48,117 bases of DNA from a virus. The stretch's first letter is position 1. Each line of letters opens with the position of its first letter. The notes under the pieces were generated by a model. That model did no database searches, had not been told where the DNA came from, and was given only the letters and a program-made list of their open reading frames with translations. Both the position numbers and the translations under genes were made by a program. Positions 13,361-48,117 of this stretch are shown piece after piece. The stretch is taken from positions 1 through 48,117 of IMG/VR virus record IMGVR_UViG_3300032677_000051; one strand, given 5' to 3'.

Positions 13361-14078
13361 TAGCCACGTCTGTTTTAGTTGATCTGCTCCAAGTACCGCA
13401 GTTAGTGCACTGATATCTCTGATAAGACCCGCTGATTGTTCTTGCGGTGCCTCGTCGTTGAATAGCTTTTGATCCACAGTTTGGGCATACATGTTCATCT
13501 TGTCCATCGTATACATTCCTATTAGGATGTGATTTAATCCAAGGAAGCACTTTGTGATATACCTTTTCAAGTAACACAACGTCTTGCTTGTTATATTTCT
13601 CCATGATTTTCCATGCAGTGGGATCGCCATTCATACAGCGTACCCAAAGACTATGACCTTCATGACTTGTTTTAGAGCCAAGGCCGAGGCGTTGCGCTAC
13701 GTAATCAAGTTTGTTAGAAGGGAAGCGGAAGTTACTGCGCATGGTTCGCAAGAGATCAATTTGCTTATATGGAGCTGGTGGTAACATATCGTTTAACAAG
13801 AACTCTTTGTTGAGGGTTGGCATGTCAAACTTAGTGCCATTGTAGTGAACAACAGCATCTGCTTCGTTAATCATTGTGTAAATCCGCTTAAGCATTTTCT
13901 TATCGCTGGATTGATGCACTGAATCGAAGAAGATTTCTTTTTCACCTAACCATTTAGCAGCCCAGCACATTACGTACGAAGACTCTTGTAGTTGGTTAAT
14001 AGAGACGTTCTGTTGCCATAGCCCCCATACGTGAGCTGTATTGGGACTTGTTTCTATATCTAGTAATAATATCTTCAT
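13335..14078 (-). CDS. RNase H-fold 3'-5' exonuclease with C-terminal zinc ribbon
   Basis: The 247-aa protein begins MKILLLDIETSPN, the DxE motif of DnaQ/PolB-type exonucleases. It carries the second motif in VVHYNGTKFDMPTLN and the third around YNKQDVVLLEKVY. The last 50 residues hold a zinc ribbon (CPNCG and CTNCG). Proteins of this kind occur next to phage replication genes and probably trim single-stranded DNA or RNA ends. The start overlaps the upstream stop as TAATG. The zinc ribbon suggests nucleic acid or partner binding. Confidence 0.85.
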   Translation of the reverse strand: MKILLLDIETSPNTAHVWGLWQQNVSINQLQESSYVMCWAAKWLGEKEIFFDSVHQSSDKKMLKRIYTMINEADAVVHYNGTKFDMPTLNKEFLLNDMLPPAPYKQIDLLRTMRSNFRFPSNKLDYVAQRLGLGSKTSHEGHSLWVRCMNGDPTAWKIMEKYNKQDVVLLEKVYHKVLPWIKSHPNRNVYDGQDEHVCPNCGSKAIQRRGTARTISGSYQRYQCTNCGTWSRSTKTDVANATIRQAN

Positions 14079-14539
14079 TATGCTATTGGTTTAATCCAAG
14101 TTATTGGTTCTTTTCTATCTAGTGAATATACTTTGACTGGTTCATGACTCATAAGGTCAACCTGACATGCCCAGTATACAGCGTCTTCTGCGGTACCACC
14201 AGCACGCATTATTGCTTCAGCTGCATGGATACCACTACCAATTGCCATAAAGGTACGCACAGGTTCCCATTCAATACCATCGTCACTTACCTGTAAACCT
14301 TCGTCAGTTAATATCATGAACGAGTTGTCATTGTTTTTTAACTTAGGAGGTACTTTACTTTTAGTACGTAGGTATTGTAGGACTTTTTCACAGTCACCAA
14401 AGTGACCAGCACCAGCAAACCAACCATCAGGAATTCGTGAACATTTTTCATCGAAGTACTTTGTGTTAGTATCTGTGTCTGAATACTGGCTATCTGTGAC
14501 AATGACTTTACGTCTCCAGTCACCTACAATCGTTGTCAT
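14078..14539 (-). CDS. HslV/proteasome-like Ntn hydrolase
   Basis: I set the start at ATG 14539, one base after the stop of the upstream gene. This gives 153 aa beginning MTTIVGDWRR. After Met removal the N-terminal Thr would be the nucleophile, as in HslV (TTIV). A conserved Asp lies in VIVTDSQ and a Lys in DEKCSRI, matching the Asp17 and Lys33 positions. WFAGAGHFGD and FMAIGSGIHAAEAIMRAG match the GFAGG and AIGSGG segments of HslV. A longer open frame to 14590 would bury the Thr and is not favoured. It should be a threonine peptidase, perhaps working with host HslU. No phage HslU is visible. It is shorter than HslV (about 175 aa). Confidence 0.8.
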   Translation of the reverse strand: MTTIVGDWRRKVIVTDSQYSDTDTNTKYFDEKCSRIPDGWFAGAGHFGDCEKVLQYLRTKSKVPPKLKNNDNSFMILTDEGLQVSDDGIEWEPVRTFMAIGSGIHAAEAIMRAGGTAEDAVYWACQVDLMSHEPVKVYSLDRKEPITWIKPIA

Positions 14540-14540
14540 G

Positions 14541-14807
14541 TTATTGAGTAGCGATTGGTGATGGAGCTGTTTCTTTCTTTGGACGACCACGAGTTAGCAT
14601 AGCGTCTGCATTAGCCCAACAAGCGTCAAATTGAACAGTAGATGGATTTTGGTTTTTGTCTAGTAACGCATCAAGGAATGTATTAGCAAATAAGCTACGC
14701 TGACTTACTGATACACCCTCTTTGAAGCCTTCTAAGAATGCACTCCGTAAGGCGTTGTTCATATCTTGATCTGTTACACGTTGTTCGTGTAGTGTGGCAA
14801 TTGCCAT
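14541..14807 (-). CDS. hypothetical protein (88 aa)
   Basis: The product is mostly helical, begins MAIATLHEQRV and contains a GRPKK basic patch near the C-terminus. The start is two bases after the upstream stop, and the stop is one base from the HslV-like start, so it may be co-translated with that gene. It might be a partner or inhibitor of the Ntn hydrolase, which is speculation from position only. Confidence 0.7.
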   Translation of the reverse strand: MAIATLHEQRVTDQDMNNALRSAFLEGFKEGVSVSQRSLFANTFLDALLDKNQNPSTVQFDACWANADAMLTRGRPKKETAPSPIATQ

Positions 14808-16556: not shown

Positions 16557-17255
16557 CTAATGATTCATTGTGGGGCCATAGTGGCACTCACATGCTAATG
16601 GTATATTTGGTTTAACTCCGAACATCCTCTCAAAGTTTGTCGGCATGTCCGCAAAGCTATCCTCAAATAACTTAATAGTTTTTTCTACTTCTACATCGTC
16701 TACATCTACGAGGATACTGTCATGGATAGTTCCAATAAGACGTCCTCTAATTCCTGCTCGCTTAAACCTTTTCGCAAAGCATACTCTGATAATTGCCATG
16801 ATGTCATGACCAGTTCCTTGTACAGGGTGATTTGTTAGTGTTGTCCATGGGATGGCTAGGTTGCCTTTGAAATCACGAACCAAGTCGAAGTACCATTCCC
16901 GTCCCTGAGGCCCAATGATAGGGAGACGTTGGCTGACCAATCGTGCCCAGGATTTGTGAGTAGTATCCAGTCCCTTGTATTTGGTGAAGAACTTATCTCC
17001 AATAGATTCCCAAAACTTAACCGTGCTGTTTGTTGCGGCAAATTCGGGGTCTTTGGAAAAGGCGTAAGCACTTCCACGATAGATAGTGCGGAAGAGATAT
17101 TTCTTTGCGATAAGTCGGCTAGGAAGGCCGAAAGCTCTTTCATTCTCGCTATGTAAGTCTCGTCCTTCAAGAATCTCCTCCATCCCTATGGGATCTTGTG
17201 ATAACCAAACTGCTGTCCACCATTCCAGGGCTTTTGCGTCTGCTTGTATAATCAT
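16557..17255 (-). CDS. DNA polymerase A, C-terminal (palm/fingers) part of split gene
   Basis: The 232-aa product starts exactly at polymerase motif A (MIIQADAKALEW). It continues with motif B-like RLIAKKYLFRTIYRGSAY and motif C with the catalytic Asp in GTIHDSILVDV. It lacks the exonuclease and thumb, which are encoded by the gene at 17388-18587. The two parts are in the same reading frame but separated by a small gene in another frame. The start overlaps that gene's stop as ATGA. It would have to assemble with the N-terminal part to form a working replicase. Confidence 0.88.
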   Translation of the reverse strand: MIIQADAKALEWWTAVWLSQDPIGMEEILEGRDLHSENERAFGLPSRLIAKKYLFRTIYRGSAYAFSKDPEFAATNSTVKFWESIGDKFFTKYKGLDTTHKSWARLVSQRLPIIGPQGREWYFDLVRDFKGNLAIPWTTLTNHPVQGTGHDIMAIIRVCFAKRFKRAGIRGRLIGTIHDSILVDVDDVEVEKTIKLFEDSFADMPTNFERMFGVKPNIPLACECHYGPTMNH

Positions 17256-17473
17256 TTCTTACAAGTAAGAGCACATGTTGGATGTGCTTCTTTAGGATGA
17301 AATAGTTTGTCATACACATCACGATTAAACATCATTAGAGCATCTTTAAAGTCTGAAGCTCCATGAATAGCGATGTATTCACTAAGATTAGACATGACAG
17401 TGTGTTCCCAAGACTCCGCTGCTACTAGCGCTAGCTCTTCTGAGATGATCATTGCTTGTTTCAGCTTGCCCAT
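17252..17473 (-). CDS. small gene inserted in the DNA polymerase (73 aa)
   Basis: The ATG at 17473 has a perfect AAGGAG five bases upstream, which lies within the polymerase N-terminal coding frame. The product (MGKLKQAMIISEELALVAAE) is helical and ends with two cysteines (HPTCALTC). Its stop overlaps the start of the polymerase C-terminal part as ATGA. I do not recognise the protein. It has no HNH, LAGLIDADG or GIY-YIG motif, so it is not an evident homing endonuclease. Good initiation signals and coupling suggest it is translated. Confidence 0.7.
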   Translation of the reverse strand: MGKLKQAMIISEELALVAAESWEHTVMSNLSEYIAIHGASDFKDALMMFNRDVYDKLFHPKEAHPTCALTCKK

Positions 17474-18587
17474 ATTCACTCCTTACAAAGTTCTGCATCT
17501 CCGGAGGCATATTCTGGAGATTTGGTTTGGTAGATGATAGTCTACCTGTCCATGTTGTTACTTGATTGAACTGCCCATGGATTTTGTTTTTAGGCCAATG
17601 CATTTCTTCATTGATCTTGATGAAACCTTGATAGAATTCATTGACTTTGGTTAGTTGTGCTAATTTAAGAAGTAGCGGCACTACACCAGTCTTGTCTTTG
17701 AGTTTACGAAGTGTGTCTTCATTGGTGGACCAAAGTCCGTCTTTCTTTAATTCGGTACCTTTAATAGGTTTAACGAGTCCATCCAAGTGATGAGTTTGTC
17801 GATCAATTGAATAGCGAGGCTGTCCGAGCTTTCCCCCTGACTTATATAATCCTGCCAGGACACGTCTTTCTTCCTCAATAGTGCCTCCATAGAGATAGGC
17901 ACTAAGGTGATCAGTGCTATTGAAGTTAACAGGTATATGAGGATATCTAGACCCAAGTTCCGAAGCGATTTTACTGATTTCTTCAGAAAGCTCGTTACTT
18001 GCTTCAAGAATTGCGTCAAGGTCGACTGGGATGCCATTGTATTCCATTTCTTCTAAAGTTAGTAAGTCTTCACAACAGAGATGTATTAGACGCCATTGTT
18101 GTGGTTTTAAGATACTTAGTTGTTTGTAGTATAATAACAACGTTGTTTTAACGTCATTGATGTTGTATTCCGATAAGATGTCCCAAGGAACAGCATCGGT
18201 ATCAATACCCTTTTCCCAGTATTCAGTCTTGACTACATCTGTTTTTTGTGGGAGTTCATACTTTTCCAAGCAAGTAGCGAGGCTAGGATACTTAGTACGC
18301 TGACGGCTAATAACATACTCAGCAACTTGACAATCAAAGACTCGCTTGACCAAGGTATCAATGCCGTAGCGACGCAACCAATGAAGGTCGAACTTAATGT
18401 TAAATCCAATAAGTAGCTCTGCACTGTTAATGGCTTGTTGTAGTAGTCGTAATCCCTCACTATTGGGATGCACACAATTATGTGTAGTGCCATCAGTCCA
18501 AGCAACAGAAACAAGTTTGTTAGTAACATCAAATGGGTTTCCTTTGTTAGAAGTTGTACACTCTATGTCAATTGACAGTAGTTTCAT
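17388..18587 (-). CDS. DNA polymerase A, N-terminal (exonuclease and thumb) part of split gene
   Basis: The 399-aa product carries an intact 3'-5' proofreading domain: Exo I LLSIDIECT, Exo II LIGFNIKFDLHWL and Exo III around YNINDVKTT. Then comes the start of the polymerase domain up to TWTGRLSSTKPNLQNMPPEM and NFVRSEY. The homologous part stops there. The last 27 or so residues (after SEY) are read out of frame through the inserted small gene and end in HCHV. Motifs A, B and C are on the separate gene downstream. T7-type polymerases normally carry all of this on one chain. Confidence 0.88.
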   Translation of the reverse strand: MKLLSIDIECTTSNKGNPFDVTNKLVSVAWTDGTTHNCVHPNSEGLRLLQQAINSAELLIGFNIKFDLHWLRRYGIDTLVKRVFDCQVAEYVISRQRTKYPSLATCLEKYELPQKTDVVKTEYWEKGIDTDAVPWDILSEYNINDVKTTLLLYYKQLSILKPQQWRLIHLCCEDLLTLEEMEYNGIPVDLDAILEASNELSEEISKIASELGSRYPHIPVNFNSTDHLSAYLYGGTIEEERRVLAGLYKSGGKLGQPRYSIDRQTHHLDGLVKPIKGTELKKDGLWSTNEDTLRKLKDKTGVVPLLLKLAQLTKVNEFYQGFIKINEEMHWPKNKIHGQFNQVTTWTGRLSSTKPNLQNMPPEMQNFVRSEYGQAETSNDHLRRASASSSGVLGTHCHV

Positions 18588-23117: not shown

Positions 23118-23245
23118 TTTCTCACCTGTAAAAGTATTGGCCCGAATCTATAAACATAGTATAAATCGCCACCATTAAAGCGCACTGAGTTCCACTGTAA
23201 TGGCTCGCCTTTAAACCACGGTGCTTTGTAAAATCGGATGTTCAT
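23114..23245 (-). CDS. small hypothetical protein (43 aa)
   Basis: The ATG at 23245 overlaps the stop of the GcvH-like gene as ATGA, and its own stop overlaps the next gene in the same way. The product (MNIRFYKAPWFKGEPLQWN) is aromatic and basic and looks like a short beta hairpin protein. Function unknown. The perfect chain of ATGA couplings is the main evidence. Confidence 0.65.
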   Translation of the reverse strand: MNIRFYKAPWFKGEPLQWNSVRFNGGDLYYVYRFGPILLQVRK

Positions 23246-23526
23246 GCGGCTTCTGCATAGAATAGTGGTGTTGATGTGGTCATTTCATCCGGACGTTCAA
23301 TAGCATCACCGTTGAATGAGATTTTGTTGACAGGAAACTCGATGTTAAGACATCCCATACCATCGGAGCCCTCAATAGCGACGATTTGATCACCTTCTTT
23401 GAAGTTACGTTTACGATCACTGGAGGGGATAATAGCCCACAGTTGACCGAATGTTTCGAGAGCTTCTGCTGTTAAGCCTACAAGGATACGATCATCTACT
23501 TGTTGTTGCCAGAATAAGTTAGACAT
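23242..23526 (-). CDS. GcvH-like (lipoyl-domain fold) protein lacking the lipoyl lysine
   Basis: The 94-aa protein reads like the core of glycine cleavage H protein: DDRILVGLTAEALETFGQLW matches the VGIT..A...LGD segment, FKEGDQIVAIEGSDG matches the .AG...AVVES.K segment, and the end STPLFYAEA matches the final strand. The lysine that carries lipoate in H protein (ESVKAA) appears replaced by Gly/Asp (EGSDGMG), so lipoylation is unlikely. It is directly downstream of an ATP-grasp ligase (ATGTCTAA overlap) at the end of the amidoligase cluster. It could be a carrier or adaptor for the product. Confidence covers the fold; the function is inference. Confidence 0.65.
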   Translation of the reverse strand: MSNLFWQQQVDDRILVGLTAEALETFGQLWAIIPSSDRKRNFKEGDQIVAIEGSDGMGCLNIEFPVNKISFNGDAIERPDEMTTSTPLFYAEAA

Positions 23527-24310
23527 ATGCTTCCTTTATGATTGCTTTACTGTATGATTCTAAGGTAGTACCTTCTAAACCTGGTGCTGTATTCACTTCT
23601 AGTGCGTAACACTTGTCATAGTGTGCGTTGTAGATAATGTCAACAGCACCAAAGTCTAGACCGAGGGCAGCCACTGCCGAAAGAGCTGTTGTTCTGAGAT
23701 CGGTTGGCTCGATAATGTCATCACGACAAAATACAAAGCCATTAGCATGATTGCGAATGAGGAAATCGCTATCAGGTGAATTAGTACTACGTCTTTTTTC
23801 TTGTAGATCGATGACTTGATTTCTGAATACATGGACACGGAATTCTTTCTTCTTTTTAATATATTTAGTATATAATGGTGCGTCTACTAGTTCTTCAGGT
23901 GATCGTGCAATAACAATACCAAGACCACTATGAGCACGAGTAAGGGTCCGAGCAAAGACCTTATGTCCACTATCCAACCATTCCAATGCAGTATCATAAT
24001 CTGTAGTCCATTCTGGGCACGAGACTTCAAAGCGACGCCACTGGCTAAAAGTAAGCAACTTATCACTAGCAAGGCGTACGTTATCAGGATCATTGTAAAT
24101 ACGACAATTTGGTATGTTACGAAAAGCACTGCTACTACCCCAATTAATAAGTACTCGAGAACGTTTGAGAAAAGGGACACGATCATCTCTAATGGAGAGT
24201 ACATTCTTCTGTAATTTCTCGGAAAGGAACATCTGTAAAGTCCTTGCGGATCGACTCCCTGCCTTGTATTTCATGACCGCTATTTTGCTGCTTAGGCGAT
24301 GTTGCTTCAT
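23519..24310 (-). CDS. ATP-grasp peptide ligase (RimK-like)
   Basis: The ATG at 24310 has a full GGAGG seven bases upstream, so I use it although it overlaps the amidotransferase gene by 122 bases. The 263-aa protein shows MKYKAGSRSARTLQ, then HKVFARTLTRAHSGLGIVI (nucleotide-binding loop), KKKEFRVHVFRNQVID and FGAVDII with ALEVNTAPGLEGTTLESY, which supplies the Asp, Glu and Asn that bind Mg-ATP. Such enzymes activate a carboxylate as acyl phosphate and join it to an amine. It is part of a cluster of peptide-bond-forming enzymes and amide-handling enzymes. Confidence 0.9.
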   Translation of the reverse strand: MKQHRLSSKIAVMKYKAGSRSARTLQMFLSEKLQKNVLSIRDDRVPFLKRSRVLINWGSSSAFRNIPNCRIYNDPDNVRLASDKLLTFSQWRRFEVSCPEWTTDYDTALEWLDSGHKVFARTLTRAHSGLGIVIARSPEELVDAPLYTKYIKKKKEFRVHVFRNQVIDLQEKRRSTNSPDSDFLIRNHANGFVFCRDDIIEPTDLRTTALSAVAALGLDFGAVDIIYNAHYDKCYALEVNTAPGLEGTTLESYSKAIIKEAYV

Positions 24311-25532
24311 CTAATGCCTCCGTTACACAATCAGCACATACAATACGATACTGATTAGGTTTGTTTTTGTACTTGAATGATGTTAAGCATGCTTGGTTTT
24401 CTTTAAGAGCACCACCACACTTATCACATTCATTATGTTGTACAACGTTTTTCCACAATGCTTCTGGTATTTTAACATTGTTGTACATGTCAACAGTTTC
24501 TGCTGGTCTAACGTCACCCAACCAAAGAGAATGACCACAGTTTGTTGAGTAGGTAGAGCGAACGACACCGGTAGCATATCCAGATTTAATTAATGTATGG
24601 ATATCATCAATGTTTACTTTCTGAGCTGCAATGCCTACAAAGTCAATGCCACCAGTAGGCCATACTGTTTTACCACGAACACGAATCATATTATTAGATT
24701 GTACTTCGATAAGTTCTGTGATTCTAATTAATGGTTCATCATTAAACTTAAAAGCATTCGGGCCATGAATCGTAGTTGAGGTATTCGGGATATGTTGTGT
24801 CTTGGGGGAAGTATGCACTACTACCCCCGATGGCTTTGGGCGATAAGCCTCATAGCTTTCTGTCTCTTCTGCACCTTTAAGACCATATGAATAGATTTTA
24901 TTGGTGTCAAAGAGTTTAGCAGTTTGGAATTTGTTTGTTTTACGATTAACTAACCATTCAATCATACCACCTTCAGAGGCTATGTAGATCATATCACTAG
25001 TTTCAATGTATGCTAGTGGTCGCTCACTATTACGAGTAATGTTGAGTTTGCCTGTCTCACGATCATACCAGATGAATGCAAAGGCACCATTGATTTGACT
25101 GAGAACTTCTTTAGCAGGCTTTTCATTGAATGCGTGAGCGATAGCATGGCTATCAACCTCGACTTCTTTGTTGAAGTCTTTTTGATTATGTAATGTGCCG
25201 TTGTGTACAAGACAGATCTTACCTTCAGCAAATGGATGAGCATTCTCTGTGTTCACAGCGCCACGAGTTGCATAGCGGTTGTGACCAACAAGAACATTCA
25301 TGCTGTTGATTGCTTTGGTACGGAAGTCGCCCCACTCATCACAGCGAAACATCAGCTGTGGTTCTACGGCTTGTTTAAGGATACGTGCTTGTTTATTTTT
25401 ATAGATACCAAACACACCTGTTGAGTCTTCGCCACGAATACTATCAGATACTAACATGCTTTGAAACATGTCAAGATCTGAGTGTACGAATCCTGATGGT
25501 GATTTGGATATCATTGCGACAATCCCACACAT
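24189..25532 (-). CDS. class II glutamine amidotransferase with C-terminal zinc ribbon
   Basis: The 447-aa protein begins MCGIVAM, so Cys2 becomes the N-terminal nucleophile after Met removal. GHNRYATRG, LVHNGTLHN and EVDSHAIAHAF complete the Ntn glutaminase signature seen in GlmS, PurF and AsnB. The domain covers about residues 1-200. No synthetase or isomerase domain follows. The rest includes CDKCGG and CADC, which look like a zinc ribbon near residues 375-420. It would release ammonia from glutamine, or transfer the amide, for the neighbouring ligases. Confidence 0.9.
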   Translation of the reverse strand: MCGIVAMISKSPSGFVHSDLDMFQSMLVSDSIRGEDSTGVFGIYKNKQARILKQAVEPQLMFRCDEWGDFRTKAINSMNVLVGHNRYATRGAVNTENAHPFAEGKICLVHNGTLHNQKDFNKEVEVDSHAIAHAFNEKPAKEVLSQINGAFAFIWYDRETGKLNITRNSERPLAYIETSDMIYIASEGGMIEWLVNRKTNKFQTAKLFDTNKIYSYGLKGAEETESYEAYRPKPSGVVVHTSPKTQHIPNTSTTIHGPNAFKFNDEPLIRITELIEVQSNNMIRVRGKTVWPTGGIDFVGIAAQKVNIDDIHTLIKSGYATGVVRSTYSTNCGHSLWLGDVRPAETVDMYNNVKIPEALWKNVVQHNECDKCGGALKENQACLTSFKYKNKPNQYRIVCADCVTEALDEATSPKQQNSGHEIQGRESIRKDFTDVPFREITEECTLH

Positions 25533-25534
25533 AA

Positions 25535-26476
25535 TTAAATCCTTCCGTCCATTATACTTTTGGTACTGTTATTAATAAATAACTTGCTAATTGCAAAGTC
25601 TTCTTGCATTTTCTTTTCAAAGTTTAGTGATTGTAACAACGTAAAGTACTCACCAAAGACCATATTGCCGAAGTTACTGTAGTTACCGTTTTGACTAATA
25701 GCTTTAATGCGTGTTTCAAGTTCTTCCGATTCTAGTGTAGTTGCATAACGATATAGACGATACAAGAGATGCAACCAAGTAAAAACAACGTTACGATCTT
25801 TAGTACCACGAAGATGACGAAACTCAATTGTTCCATATTCGTTAAGTGGTTTAACATTTAAACCTGTGTATTTAGACCAAAACTTGTAAAGATCACCACT
25901 GTGCATAAGGCCTTTGAAGCCGTTGTAATATTGTGTATTACCAATAGGAACACAGAAGATAGATTTTTTACGTTCACTACCTGCGAAGTCATACAATAGA
26001 TCTTCAAAGCATTGATACAATATAACAATATTATATATTTGTTTAAGGGTTAATTCACGACAGTTTAAATGAACATGAACACTGGTACGTGGACTGAAGT
26101 GAACTTTGGCTGGTAATTCAGCGTAGAGATGGTTAATAGCTGCTTCAATTTGATGTGGTGTGCTAGGAGATGAGATAAACTCACGACCTGCATTCCGTAA
26201 TGAACCATCGCTTGCTACACTCCAAGAGTGGGTAAGTTTAAATTCAGTGTCGTCTAGATTCTCAACTTCAACTTCAATACCAGTAAGTGGGCCATTGTAT
26301 TGTGAAAACTGTTGATTATCAGTAAGCAGTTCGTTTTTATTAACTTTCAAGCTAGGAAAGTCACGGAGTTCACATAATTTCACGTTCGGATTCCCGTTCA
26401 AAGTCTGGGGCTGTGATCTGCCCAGATTTCGTAATATGTCCGATAGCACCGTATCTGTACCAGAGGATATAGTCAT
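25535..26476 (-). CDS. amidoligase, glutamine-synthetase-like fold
   Basis: The 313-aa protein carries the amidoligase pattern: GPLTGIEVEVENL (the first acidic Mg-ATP site), GSLRNAGREFISSP, TSVHVHLNCREL with the His-x-His motif, and YGTIEFRHLRGT with the second glutamate and Arg. These enzymes form an amide bond using ATP. The first ATG has AAGGA seven bases upstream but lies 107 bases inside the preceding gene. A GTG at 26383 would overlap by only 14 bases and is the main alternative. It follows the 199-aa unknown protein of the cluster. Confidence 0.85.
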   Translation of the reverse strand: MTISSGTDTVLSDILRNLGRSQPQTLNGNPNVKLCELRDFPSLKVNKNELLTDNQQFSQYNGPLTGIEVEVENLDDTEFKLTHSWSVASDGSLRNAGREFISSPSTPHQIEAAINHLYAELPAKVHFSPRTSVHVHLNCRELTLKQIYNIVILYQCFEDLLYDFAGSERKKSIFCVPIGNTQYYNGFKGLMHSGDLYKFWSKYTGLNVKPLNEYGTIEFRHLRGTKDRNVVFTWLHLLYRLYRYATTLESEELETRIKAISQNGNYSNFGNMVFGEYFTLLQSLNFEKKMQEDFAISKLFINNSTKSIMDGRI

Positions 26477-26969
26477 CTTTCTTTCCTTGTGATAGTGCCA
26501 TGTTACGGCTTAGTGCTACTGATTGATAGTTTTTGTTATTAAGTAAGTCAAGGGCTTCTTTTAAGCTGTGATACTTTGGATCAAAAGCCTCTCTAATCTT
26601 TTCAAAACAAGGTAAGTTATCACGTCCTTGTAATGATAGATACTGAGTCATTGGAACATCAAATTGACAATTGTTTTGATGAATGCCACGTTTCCATTGA
26701 CGCTCAGGCCTACGACTAAAGAACATAGCACGATCTTTGTGTTGAATGTATCCTGTTTTAGGAATACGAAAGAAGATCTTAGCCTGTGTGTTATAGTTAA
26801 GGATGATAGTACCAAGAGTATCAGACTGTAGTTCAAGCTCAGGGAACTTTTTACCAAGTGTACGCATACGTTGGAATTGGAAGATACCTGTGGTTTTACC
26901 CATTACAACTTGCACAAAACTTCCTTGATACTTGCGTTCGAAGTCTTCAAAGATTTGATTTGGATTCAT
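26370..26969 (-). CDS. uncharacterised protein of the amidoligase cluster (199 aa)
   Basis: I do not recognise this protein. It begins MNPNQIFEDFERKYQGSFV, has a beta-rich N-terminal half with KTGYIQHKDRAMFF and RPERQWKRGIHQNNC, and a helical C-terminal half ending DFERESEREIM. It sits between two glutamine-synthetase-fold ligases with overlaps on both sides, so it is probably part of the same pathway. It could be the substrate protein, a carrier or a regulatory subunit. No catalytic motif is obvious. Confidence 0.8.
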   Translation of the reverse strand: MNPNQIFEDFERKYQGSFVQVVMGKTTGIFQFQRMRTLGKKFPELELQSDTLGTIILNYNTQAKIFFRIPKTGYIQHKDRAMFFSRRPERQWKRGIHQNNCQFDVPMTQYLSLQGRDNLPCFEKIREAFDPKYHSLKEALDLLNNKNYQSVALSRNMALSQGKKDDYILWYRYGAIGHITKSGQITAPDFERESEREIM

Positions 26970-27742
26970 ACTAGTCTCGGTAATACCTCATTGATGCGAG
27001 CTAACAAAGACTCGTCAGAGTTATTGATACAGTCTTGGATCATAGATCCTACCTCGTCAGGGATTGTGTGTCCATCACGAACAAACTGTACAGCTTTTTG
27101 TGTTTGATTGAATGCCCATTCTTTGAGTTCATCGCTTTGTAACCAAGCGTTAGAAGCTGTGCGATACTCAACACCATAAGATTTAGGACGGTAAGCACCA
27201 GCTTTGCCATACAAACTGCGACGCTGTGTGTCTTTGTCAAATGCAACCATTTGAGCACCAACAAAGAGATCCATAGCTTTGATTAGATCAATTTTGTCTA
27301 ATTCAGGAGCTTCAATGTGGATGTGTCCACCAGCAGATCGCAGTTTAGCATCTTTAGCCCTAGGTCGAGGATTAGGAGTGCCAAAGTTCCAAGCGTTAAA
27401 GTCAGGCTCACATCCAAAAGTCTGCGCAGCTTCTGTTCTGAGTTGATTGCTAGCAAATCTAGCAGAAGGGGTATGAACAACATTAAGTCCCAACTCACTA
27501 GCACGGTTAGTAATCCAGCTAAGATTGTAATTAATGACACGGACGAACTCCTTTACATCGTTGGTTGGTGGTGTGTTGAATTCAACGGTTACGTTGTCTT
27601 CTTGAACAGAGCAACCCTCACCAATCGGCATTGGTTCATCTTTGCTGCCACCGATGAGACCAACAGATGAGATGAACTCACCAGTTTTAGATTGAAGGAA
27701 TGTTTCAGGATCGCTACCTACACGTACATATTGGTTCCACAT
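26966..27742 (-). CDS. COOH-NH2 ligase, phiEco32-like type 2
   Basis: The 258-aa protein resembles the phage COOH.NH2 ligase family with the glutamine synthetase fold: VRVGSDPETFLQ, SVQEDNVTVEFNTPP, SAGGHIHIEAPEL (His-x-His with Glu) and YGVEYRTASNAWL. These acidic and His residues form the Mg-ATP and substrate site. The enzyme is predicted to join a carboxylate with an amine, in peptide synthesis or protein modification. It lies next to the class I amidotransferase, which could supply ammonia or process its product. Confidence 0.87.
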   Translation of the reverse strand: MWNQYVRVGSDPETFLQSKTGEFISSVGLIGGSKDEPMPIGEGCSVQEDNVTVEFNTPPTNDVKEFVRVINYNLSWITNRASELGLNVVHTPSARFASNQLRTEAAQTFGCEPDFNAWNFGTPNPRPRAKDAKLRSAGGHIHIEAPELDKIDLIKAMDLFVGAQMVAFDKDTQRRSLYGKAGAYRPKSYGVEYRTASNAWLQSDELKEWAFNQTQKAVQFVRDGHTIPDEVGSMIQDCINNSDESLLARINEVLPRLV

Positions 27743-27744
27743 AA

Positions 27745-28377
27745 TTAATGATTCCTTTTCATTTTATGTTTAATCTGATTGACAGTAAATTCTATTTCAC
27801 CTGTTGAGCAAGCCCACTCAGGATGCCACTGAAAGCCTAACGCATTGATTTGAGGAAAGTATACAGCCTCTGGCTCAACTCTAACCAAGGTTGGGTCCAC
27901 CCCATCCCCAAGATAGTGATTACTAAGAGGATGATGACTCCAAGCCAATAGATCATGTTCGATTTCCCAAGGATACATTTGTTGATGATGTACAGATGTG
28001 GTATCAAAATGCATACCTTCTTTGCTTTCTACTGCATGACCACGACCATTTGCATGGTTGGTTACATCTTGAACTAATTTGCCACCAGCGAATGCACAAG
28101 CTAGTTGAGCACCACGACAACTACCAATGATCAGAGCTTTTTGAGCAATGGCTTCAGTGATTGCTAGTTGCTCAACCATATCCCGACTGGAGAGTGTATC
28201 ACCAACATGGCTATGTGTGTTTTTACTACGATAAAGGCTAGGATGGATATCACCACCACCTTCAAAGTGTATAGCATCATAAGAAGCTCCAGGTTTCCAA
28301 GTGATTACGTTATTGAAAAGATCACAGATTTCATCTGCAACGCCAGTACCCATTCTAACAAGTGCTAATGTGCTCAT
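27745..28377 (-). CDS. class I glutamine amidotransferase / gamma-glutamyl hydrolase-like protein
   Basis: The 210-aa protein has the triad of the class I family: Cys87 in LIIGSCRGAQL, His185 and Glu187 in GFQWHPEW. FEGGGDIHPSLY is the oxyanion-loop region. DVTNHANGRGHAV and TSVHHQQMY resemble the PuuD/gamma-glutamyl hydrolase branch, which cleaves gamma-glutamyl amide bonds. It is the first gene of the amidoligase cluster and overlaps the upstream gene as ATGA. It may hydrolyse a gamma-glutamyl intermediate or feed ammonia to the next ligase. Confidence 0.9.
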   Translation of the reverse strand: MSTLALVRMGTGVADEICDLFNNVITWKPGASYDAIHFEGGGDIHPSLYRSKNTHSHVGDTLSSRDMVEQLAITEAIAQKALIIGSCRGAQLACAFAGGKLVQDVTNHANGRGHAVESKEGMHFDTTSVHHQQMYPWEIEHDLLAWSHHPLSNHYLGDGVDPTLVRVEPEAVYFPQINALGFQWHPEWACSTGEIEFTVNQIKHKMKRNH

Positions 28378-33075: not shown

Positions 33076-33104
33076 ATTATATACTATTCTTGTTCTAAAG
33101 TCAA
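33076..33104 (-). promoter_or_regulatory. leftward sigma70 promoter for the early unit
   Basis: On the minus strand TTGACT (33104-33099) and TATAAT (33081-33076) are separated by exactly 17 bases. It lies upstream of the structured region and faces the leftward unit. The -10 box is consensus and the -35 differs at one base, so host RNA polymerase could use it directly. Confidence 0.7.
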
Positions 33105-33140
33105 CCCCTACTTGTAAATATATTTATTTTGTGTTACCTA

Positions 33141-33169
33141 TTGACAAATCAATAAATATGTGGTATAAT
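33141..33169 (+). promoter_or_regulatory. rightward consensus sigma70 promoter for the late unit
   Basis: TTGACA (33141-33146) and TATAAT (33164-33169) are both perfect and spaced by 17 bases. The start of transcription would fall at about 33176, immediately before the dyad at 33177-33194. It is 49 bases upstream of the small terminase start. Confidence 0.82.
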
Positions 33170-47521: not shown

Positions 47522-48117
47522 ATGTCTACAACCTTTACAGTAAGCCGTGATCAGATTATCCAGTTAGCATTACGCAAGCTTGGTGTATTGGAACTTGGCG
47601 ACACTCCTGATGCAGCTACAGTATCTAATGCATCACTAGCTCTTAACCTATTTATTAAACAGATGGCAACATCTGGTTTAAAGTTATGGAAAGTTAATGA
47701 GTTAGTATTACCCCTTGTTGCTGGACAGACTGAGTATGTTATTGGCCCAGCTAGTACTGGTACGGTAGATCTGAATACAGATAAACCACTTAAAGTAATA
47801 CAAGCTTGGTTACGTAATATAACTGTAACACCATCTACGGATGATGTACAGATTCAGTTGCTAAGCAAACAAGAATACAATATGTTAGGTTCAAAGTTTA
47901 GTACTGGAACACCTAACTCCTTATACATGGATGTACGTAATATTACAAGTAATGTATACCTGTATGTTACACCAGATTCATATACACAGTCTAATCAACA
48001 GTTACACTTTATTGTGCAACAACCGATGGCTGATATTATGACAGCACAAGCTATCCCTGATTTCCCTACTGAATGGATGAACGTCCTTGTATGGAATCTT
48101 GCTGATCAGCTAGCTAT
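47522..48117 (+). CDS. head-completion protein (P22 gp4-like), N-terminal part
   Basis: The gene starts at ATG 47522, right after the previous TAG, and is cut by the window end. It continues at base 2. The visible 198 residues begin MSTTFTVSRDQIIQLALRKL and include helices with NASLALNLFIKQMATSGLKLW. P22 gp4-type adaptors are about 160-250 aa and all helical. The full product would be about 249 aa. It extends the portal and lies just before the gp10-like gene after closing the circle. Confidence 0.78.
   Translation, partial: MSTTFTVSRDQIIQLALRKLGVLELGDTPDAATVSNASLALNLFIKQMATSGLKLWKVNELVLPLVAGQTEYVIGPASTGTVDLNTDKPLKVIQAWLRNITVTPSTDDVQIQLLSKQEYNMLGSKFSTGTPNSLYMDVRNITSNVYLYVTPDSYTQSNQQLHFIVQQPMADIMTAQAIPDFPTEWMNVLVWNLADQLA
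47959..48117. repeat. terminal redundancy, right copy
   Basis: This is the second copy of the 159-base overlap described for bases 1-159. Differences are at 47960, 47965 and 47991. The one at 47960 turns the apparent start codon at base 2 into CTG, which shows that the ORF there is internal. Confidence 0.9.

Follow-up and report, generated by a model that had tools for sequence, protein, structure and literature searches.

A phage amidoligase module of the phiEco32/LUZ24 type with a lineage-specific GcvH-like protein and a possible gamma-glutamyl pathway

The virus record IMGVR_UViG_3300032677_000051 is a contig of 48,117 bases, which was analyzed over its whole length and is called the window here. 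An exact 126-base direct terminal repeat occurs at 34-159 and 47992-48117, and the contig is therefore probably a complete genome. Genes for portal, terminase, head, and tail proteins are present, as are those for a ribonucleotide reductase and a family A DNA polymerase. Seven adjacent or overlapping genes at 23242-28377 on the minus strand, read from 28377 to 23242, form a phage amidoligase module of the phiEco32/LUZ24 type, a kind known since 2009. Their coordinates and lengths, as given in an original prediction made from the sequence alone, match the open reading frames (ORFs), which encode 210, 258, 199, 313, 447, 263, and 94 amino acids (aa) in order of transcription. The link drawn there to the families described by Iyer and colleagues (2009) and to phiEco32-type phages also held. 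The genes are as follows.

27745..28377, minus strand: GAT1, probable Peptidase C26/PuuD-type gamma-glutamyl hydrolase (Pfam, solved chains, NCBIfam, catalytic triad)
26966..27742, minus strand: COOH-NH2 ligase type 2 (PF14395), glutamine-synthetase (GS)/GCS-type (Pfam, PHROG, residues)
26370..26969, minus strand: UNK, 199-aa conserved partner protein (PHROG 11055) between both GS-type ligases (position, AlphaFold2)
25535..26476, minus strand: Amidoligase_2 (PF12224), second GS-type ligase (Pfam, PHROG, residues; start uncertain)
24189..25532, minus strand: GAT-II, class II (Ntn) glutamine amidotransferase (GATase_6, GlmS/PurF structures, residues)
23519..24310, minus strand: RimK-like ATP-grasp carboxylate-amine ligase (PHROG, RimK structures, residues)
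23242..23526, minus strand: GcvH-like 94-aa protein without lipoyl-lysine, lineage-specific addition (family profile, GcvH structures)

Shine-Dalgarno-like sequences precede nearly all seven starts; the one in front of the ATP-grasp start codon (ATG at 24310), for example, is GGAGG. When the longest ORFs are used, GAT-II and the ATP-grasp gene overlap by 122 nt and UNK and Amidoligase_2 by 107 nt; the true start of Amidoligase_2 could lie further inside its ORF. A gene-neighborhood comparison in phages found both GS-type ligases, GAT-II, and ATP-grasp together in 102 fetched loci, which are the modules counted below. The ratio of nonsynonymous to synonymous substitution rates (dN/dS) ranged from 0.06 to 0.31 in divergent pairs for the genes where it was computable. 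As these values are well below 1, all seven genes are taken to be real and in use, and since the same genes also recur together in 102 loci, the cluster is not a product of chance.

The window combines PF14395 and PF12224 with a class II amidotransferase and a RimK-like ATP-grasp enzyme in one cluster, all with intact catalytic residues, whose conservation was measured across ~50 diverse phages. The COOH-NH2 ligase was matched by Pfam COOH-NH2_lig at 4.4e-10 and PHROG 3815 at 4.8e-70, and Amidoligase_2 by its Pfam profile at 2.6e-7 and PHROG 7469 at 2e-43, both exceeding the Pfam cut-offs. In the former, D11, E13, D49, E54, H140, H142, E192, and R194 were kept in 98-100% of 51 sequences, while G66-x-E68-x-E70, H134, H136, N207, E218, and R220 of Amidoligase_2 were kept in 100% of 48. 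The two families are grouped into one superfamily in the literature; profile homology between them was not detected with hhalign.

GAT-II matched Pfam GATase_6 at 6.5e-20 and solved GlmS structures at 3.5e-18, as well as PurF. Cys2 was present in 90% of 49 sequences, R86, N111, and G112 in 96%, and D127 in 100%, with glutamine-site residues as in GlmS/PurF. Its C-terminal region of ~240 aa carries a Cys-rich motif in many relatives according to the alignment. The conserved C-terminal end was considered as a peptide substrate and rejected, as it overlaps the ATP-grasp gene in near relatives, where the other frame can explain the conservation. The ATP-grasp enzyme matched Pfam RimK at 6.8e-4, just under the cut-off, and PHROG 2599 (“S6 glutaminyl transferase”) at 1.3e-74. 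RimK/S6-glutamate ligase structures were the nearest solved ones (4e-11), and K84, E156, R158, K172, D224, and N240 were found in 100% and E238 in 98% of 50 sequences. The four family assignments of the original prediction are hence backed by Pfam/PHROG profiles and, for GAT-II and ATP-grasp, by solved structures; profiles and residue alignments showed neither unrelated families nor lost catalytic residues.

Because the nearest solved relatives of the ATP-grasp protein are RimK enzymes, protein tagging is the main rival to the synthesis of a small compound. The ligases would then attach glutamate or a short peptide to a protein of the host or the phage (e.g., ribosomal protein S6 or RNA polymerase), and a gamma-glutamyl-cutting enzyme, either C26 or gamma-glutamyl cyclotransferase (GGCT), would edit the tag. 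The closeness to the S6-glutamate ligase and the PHROG name agree with tagging, protein modification has been proposed by Aravind and colleagues for phage R2K ATP-grasp enzymes (PMC4431377), and expression in the middle phase would suit host takeover (PMC4707531). However, one ligase would suffice for a tag, whereas three ligases and a glutamine amidotransferase suggest a multi-step synthesis, and no acceptor protein was identified. Tagging is thus regarded as possible, if rather unlikely.

GAT1 had originally been called a class I amidotransferase. Pfam GATase was matched at 2.8e-6, and the residues Cys87, His185, and Glu187 had been predicted exactly and did not vary in any of 38 sequences; the protein is closer to C26/PuuD-type gamma-glutamyl hydrolases. 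Peptidase_C26 was matched at 2e-16 (60.9 bits over a cut-off of 20.5), and the nearest solved chains were Lin1909 (5e-23) and PuuD (3e-11), together with probable SpuA-type enzymes (entries 7D4R-7D53, which we take to be SpuA). The NCBIfam profiles for gamma-glutamyl-CDP-amidate hydrolase (3e-5) and PuuD (1.2e-4) scored far under their cut-offs, which places GAT1 in neither named equivalog. The Pfam scan found no fused synthase domain in GAT1, leaving room for an ammonia-fed partner enzyme elsewhere in the cluster. From these matches, GAT1 is more likely a gamma-glutamyl hydrolase of the C26/PuuD type than a synthase-coupled class I amidotransferase.

An enzyme of this kind is nearly constant, with C26 or GGCT occurring in 98 of 102 modules (71 C26 only, 11 GGCT only, 16 both). 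The four without either comprise GAP52, in which a cyclotransferase (gp044) lies just beyond the fetched locus, and three contigs truncated close to the upstream side. Since other phages replace C26 with GGCT or add GGCT to it, this near-constancy points to gamma-glutamyl chemistry in the predicted pathway.

UNK was listed in the original prediction as a protein of unknown function, and no known function was found for it here either; what can be added is that it is a core part of the module and a conserved phage protein family. In 85 of the 102 modules, it sits between the GS-type ligases, with the COOH-NH2 ligase before it and Amidoligase_2 after it. Its AlphaFold2 model is confident (pLDDT 91.9) and gave no fold match in the PDB at E<=0.001, while the significant matches in BFVD came from its own phage family only, including the homologue CW02 gp8. 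In two modules, an ORF of ~230 aa that the UNK profile did not recognize occupies the slot. The other 15 have no recognizable UNK, a different gene order, and an N-terminal extension of ~190 aa on the amidoligase; crAss-like cr108_1 is among them. This second architecture was seen in L078, L080, L085, L087, L091, L096, L050, and similar loci, with extensions of 150-200 aa, and GAT-II is often enlarged to 420-870 aa in it. That the extension is a fused UNK is not supported: comparison of the two profiles gave a probability of 0.5%, and the weak model of the extension (pLDDT 72.6) matched only its own amidoligase relatives in the fold search. Judged by gene position, UNK is most likely an obligate subunit or the acceptor of the second ligase, Amidoligase_2.

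The 94-aa protein alone had no Pfam match. At the family level, GCV_H was matched by nine of 11 members (best 2.5e-5) and the family profile reached solved GcvH chains at 3.3e-5, which identifies it by profile homology as a true GcvH homologue. The GcvH-like label of the original prediction therefore stands for the family, without the lipoylated lysine. The corresponding position holds D in 16 of 21 members, the window protein included, and E, R, L, A, and Y in one each. Because lysine is absent in 21 of 21, the protein cannot carry lipoate in the known way. The 21 ORFs were found in the window phage lineage, Alcaligenes phage QDWS535, and one metagenome contig, all directly downstream of ATP-grasp. 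Our best guess from this position is a docking or structural role, e.g., as a docking subunit of the ATP-grasp enzyme. Alternatively, UNK may serve as a phage-specific, LysW-like carrier or acceptor for peptide assembly, and the GcvH domain may have been repurposed to act as a carrier or as a delivery subunit for ATP-grasp, in a viral amino-carrier-protein pathway; this appears quite improbable.

The COOH-NH2 ligase was found by tblastn in 311 phage records and the amidoligase in 314, and a profile-guided scan of IMG/VR confirmed 468 contigs. Among 84,980 prokaryote genomes, only 12 loci were detected, all on metagenome-assembled contigs and several with the surrounding module, and the module is therefore essentially viral. 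It is present in Bruynoghevirus, Kuravirus, Zobellviridae, Grimontviridae, and crAss-like phages. Beside the main module, L037 holds a second COOH-NH2 ligase and L040 a second ATP-grasp gene, which hints at duplicated or diversified pathways.

This host range bears on a modification of the cell envelope that would block superinfection. Ligases of these superfamilies act on bacterial peptidoglycan peptides, which counts for it. An envelope change of this kind was suggested by Iyer and colleagues for phiEco32, as their work is cited in PMC10580990 and PMC11318856. However, the hosts of the module are very different, including that of a gut crAss-like phage, and none of the seven proteins matched a membrane or cell-wall family in Pfam or NCBIfam, so that this explanation is considered distinctly unlikely.

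A role in auxiliary nitrogen metabolism, in which the genes would aid host nitrogen assimilation into glutamate and related amino acids, appears less probable still. The enzymes use glutamine and ammonia, and Poriferisphaera phage ZRK32 (L055), which infects Planctomycetes, carries the same module. For this phage, the available text of PMC10945688 proposes a nitrogen role and reports increased growth with nitrate or ammonium upon phage addition; in that text, the effect is not linked to these genes by mutation. Moreover, the core protein UNK, two GS-type ligases, and tight linkage fit a simple boost of assimilation poorly. The auxiliary metabolic genes for nitrogen described in PMC10945688 are those of the standard amidoligase module, UNK among them, arranged as in LUZ24-like phages, and the glutathione synthase reported there is presumably the RimK-like ATP-grasp enzyme.

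In the window, a long leftward transcription unit holds the module together with helicase, primase, polymerase, and exonuclease genes. One promoter is proposed for it:

33076..33104, minus strand: candidate sigma-70-type promoter of the leftward unit, TTGACT-17-TATAAT (11/12 consensus match only)

It remains a candidate because 22 sigma-70-like matches were found in the region against 29 expected by chance. Back-to-back divergent sigma-70-like promoters lie between the leftward and rightward units at 33076-33169, one perfect with an extended -10 and the other matching at 11/12. Timing was read from relatives. PaP3 ORF42-48, which are the same module, are middle genes with an expression peak at 10-30 min (PMC4707531), in line with the early/middle placement originally suggested. 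In SU10, mass spectrometry detected ATP-grasp, the amidotransferase (GAT-II), GGCT, and a 23.3-kDa hypothetical protein (PMC4281155); the sample was PEG-concentrated phage, not gradient-purified, and provides no evidence of virion association. The 23.3-kDa protein has the mass of the UNK homologue, with a coding-sequence number off by one relative to RefSeq, and is tentatively taken as UNK.

Primase/helicase and DNA polymerase genes usually lie just downstream of the module, and this position would suit a product that is attached to phage DNA or RNA as protection from host nucleases. As no base-modifying enzyme (hydroxymethylase or base-specific kinase) was recognized among the window proteins scanned, nucleic-acid modification is held to be very unlikely.

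Taken together, the reading favored here, tentatively, is that the module represents a complete phage pathway that makes a small peptide-like compound via gamma-glutamyl intermediates in the middle phase of infection. In ~50 phages, a glutamine amidotransferase has been retained alongside three ATP-dependent carboxylate-amine ligases of different kinds, all with intact active sites, and a multi-step synthesis of a small compound best fits the joint presence of these ligases, a glutaminase, and an enzyme that cuts gamma-glutamyl groups. Family biochemistry suggests that GAT-II would hydrolyze glutamine to supply ammonia, which it should be able to release since Cys2 and the GlmS/PurF glutamine-site residues are kept. 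In ligases of the GS and ATP-grasp types, amide bonds arise via acyl phosphates. Both GS-type ligases and the RimK-like enzyme would use ATP to activate carboxylates and would create one amide bond after another, with glutamate as the most likely partner. C26, or GGCT in other phages, would strip gamma-glutamyl groups so that the product is released or recycled, as PuuD removes the gamma-glutamyl group after PuuA. UNK would work with the second ligase, and the GcvH domain, which lacks the lysine, may serve the ATP-grasp enzyme as a docking subunit.

Several points weigh against such a pathway. The literature searched gives no product, substrate, or phenotype for the module and contains no experiments on its function. 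For the effects suggested in the original prediction, on host proteins, the host surface, or the virion, none of the analyses yielded support. RimK modifies a protein, so the closest solved relatives of the ATP-grasp enzyme fit a protein tag equally well, and C26 and GGCT also suit the trimming of a protein-bound glutamate chain. The roles of UNK and the GcvH-like protein are based on position only.

Further genes were observed outside the module. An HslV/proteasome-type Ntn-hydrolase gene (PHROG 1040, 4.5e-26) lies at 14078-14590 on the minus strand of the window and likely starts with the ATG at 14539, giving the N-terminus Met-Thr-Thr. The family A DNA polymerase is divided into two ORFs (16557-17255 and 17388-18587, minus strand) and has an insertion of ~130-170 bases just ahead of the conserved polymerase block; a group I intron was rejected, as there was no Rfam match. 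In UFV-P2, polymerase parts are reportedly separated by intron-like material (PMC3890496). GAP52 (L126, 41877-44395) and Slicky01 (L047, 1982-4263) carry pairs of nicotinamide/nicotinate phosphoribosyltransferase and phosphoribosyl pyrophosphate (PRPP) synthetase genes that resemble NAD-restoring counter-defense pathways.

Phages by the hundred, ranging from podoviruses of Pseudomonas to crAss-like phages of the gut, devote 5-7 kb to this pathway. The literature found goes no further than guesses, namely a block to superinfection, a part in nitrogen metabolism, or the modification of host proteins. The question is narrowed here to a five-protein core with a structurally uncharacterized partner, a near-constant enzyme that cuts gamma-glutamyl groups, expression of the module in the middle phase in one relative, and a GcvH homologue minus the cofactor lysine, which makes it testable in laboratory phages such as LUZ24/PaP3 or phiEco32.

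Compared with known systems, multidomain non-ribosomal peptide synthetases are not represented, as Pfam found no adenylation, condensation, or carrier domains in the seven proteins, and PADLOC matched none of the seven to known anti-phage defense. A pupylation-like tag-and-degrade system with the HslV-like gene was rejected: PHROG 1040 occurred in only six of 42 other module-bearing records, partly as fragments, and in place of the Gly-Gly-Glu/Gln end of a tag protein, UNK ends in EREIM and the GcvH-like protein in YAEAA. The PuuA/PuuD gamma-glutamylpolyamine pathway likewise combines a GS-type ligase with a C26 hydrolase, a functional analogy only, whereas the ligases of the window come from other families of that superfamily and the cluster has no polyamine oxidase or aldehyde dehydrogenase. 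The family of the 94-aa protein shares profile homology with GcvH across the domain, but lacks the lipoyl-lysine and is not in a glycine-cleavage operon.

The closest likeness is to other phage modules. Those of the phiEco32/LUZ24/PaP3 type agree with the window in the local arrangement of five genes (COOH-NH2 ligase, ~190-aa protein, amidoligase, GAT-II, and ATP-grasp) and in their intact catalytic residues; LUZ24, PaP3, and phiEco32 have GGCT instead of C26 and no GcvH-like gene, while the window phage shows the reverse. Zobellviridae (PA11, CW02, CVT22) share the C26 enzyme and all core genes, but GAT-II lies upstream of the COOH-NH2 ligase and no GcvH-like gene was found. Alcaligenes phage vB_Af_QDWS535 is the closest named phage, with the same seven genes in the same order, an additional GGCT, and proteins ~33-55% identical to those of the window where BLAST-aligned; its lysine-less GcvH-like ORF is unannotated in the record. 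What is new relative to the kind known since 2009 is the GcvH-like addition specific to this lineage, the corrected label of the hydrolase, and the finding that UNK belongs to the core.

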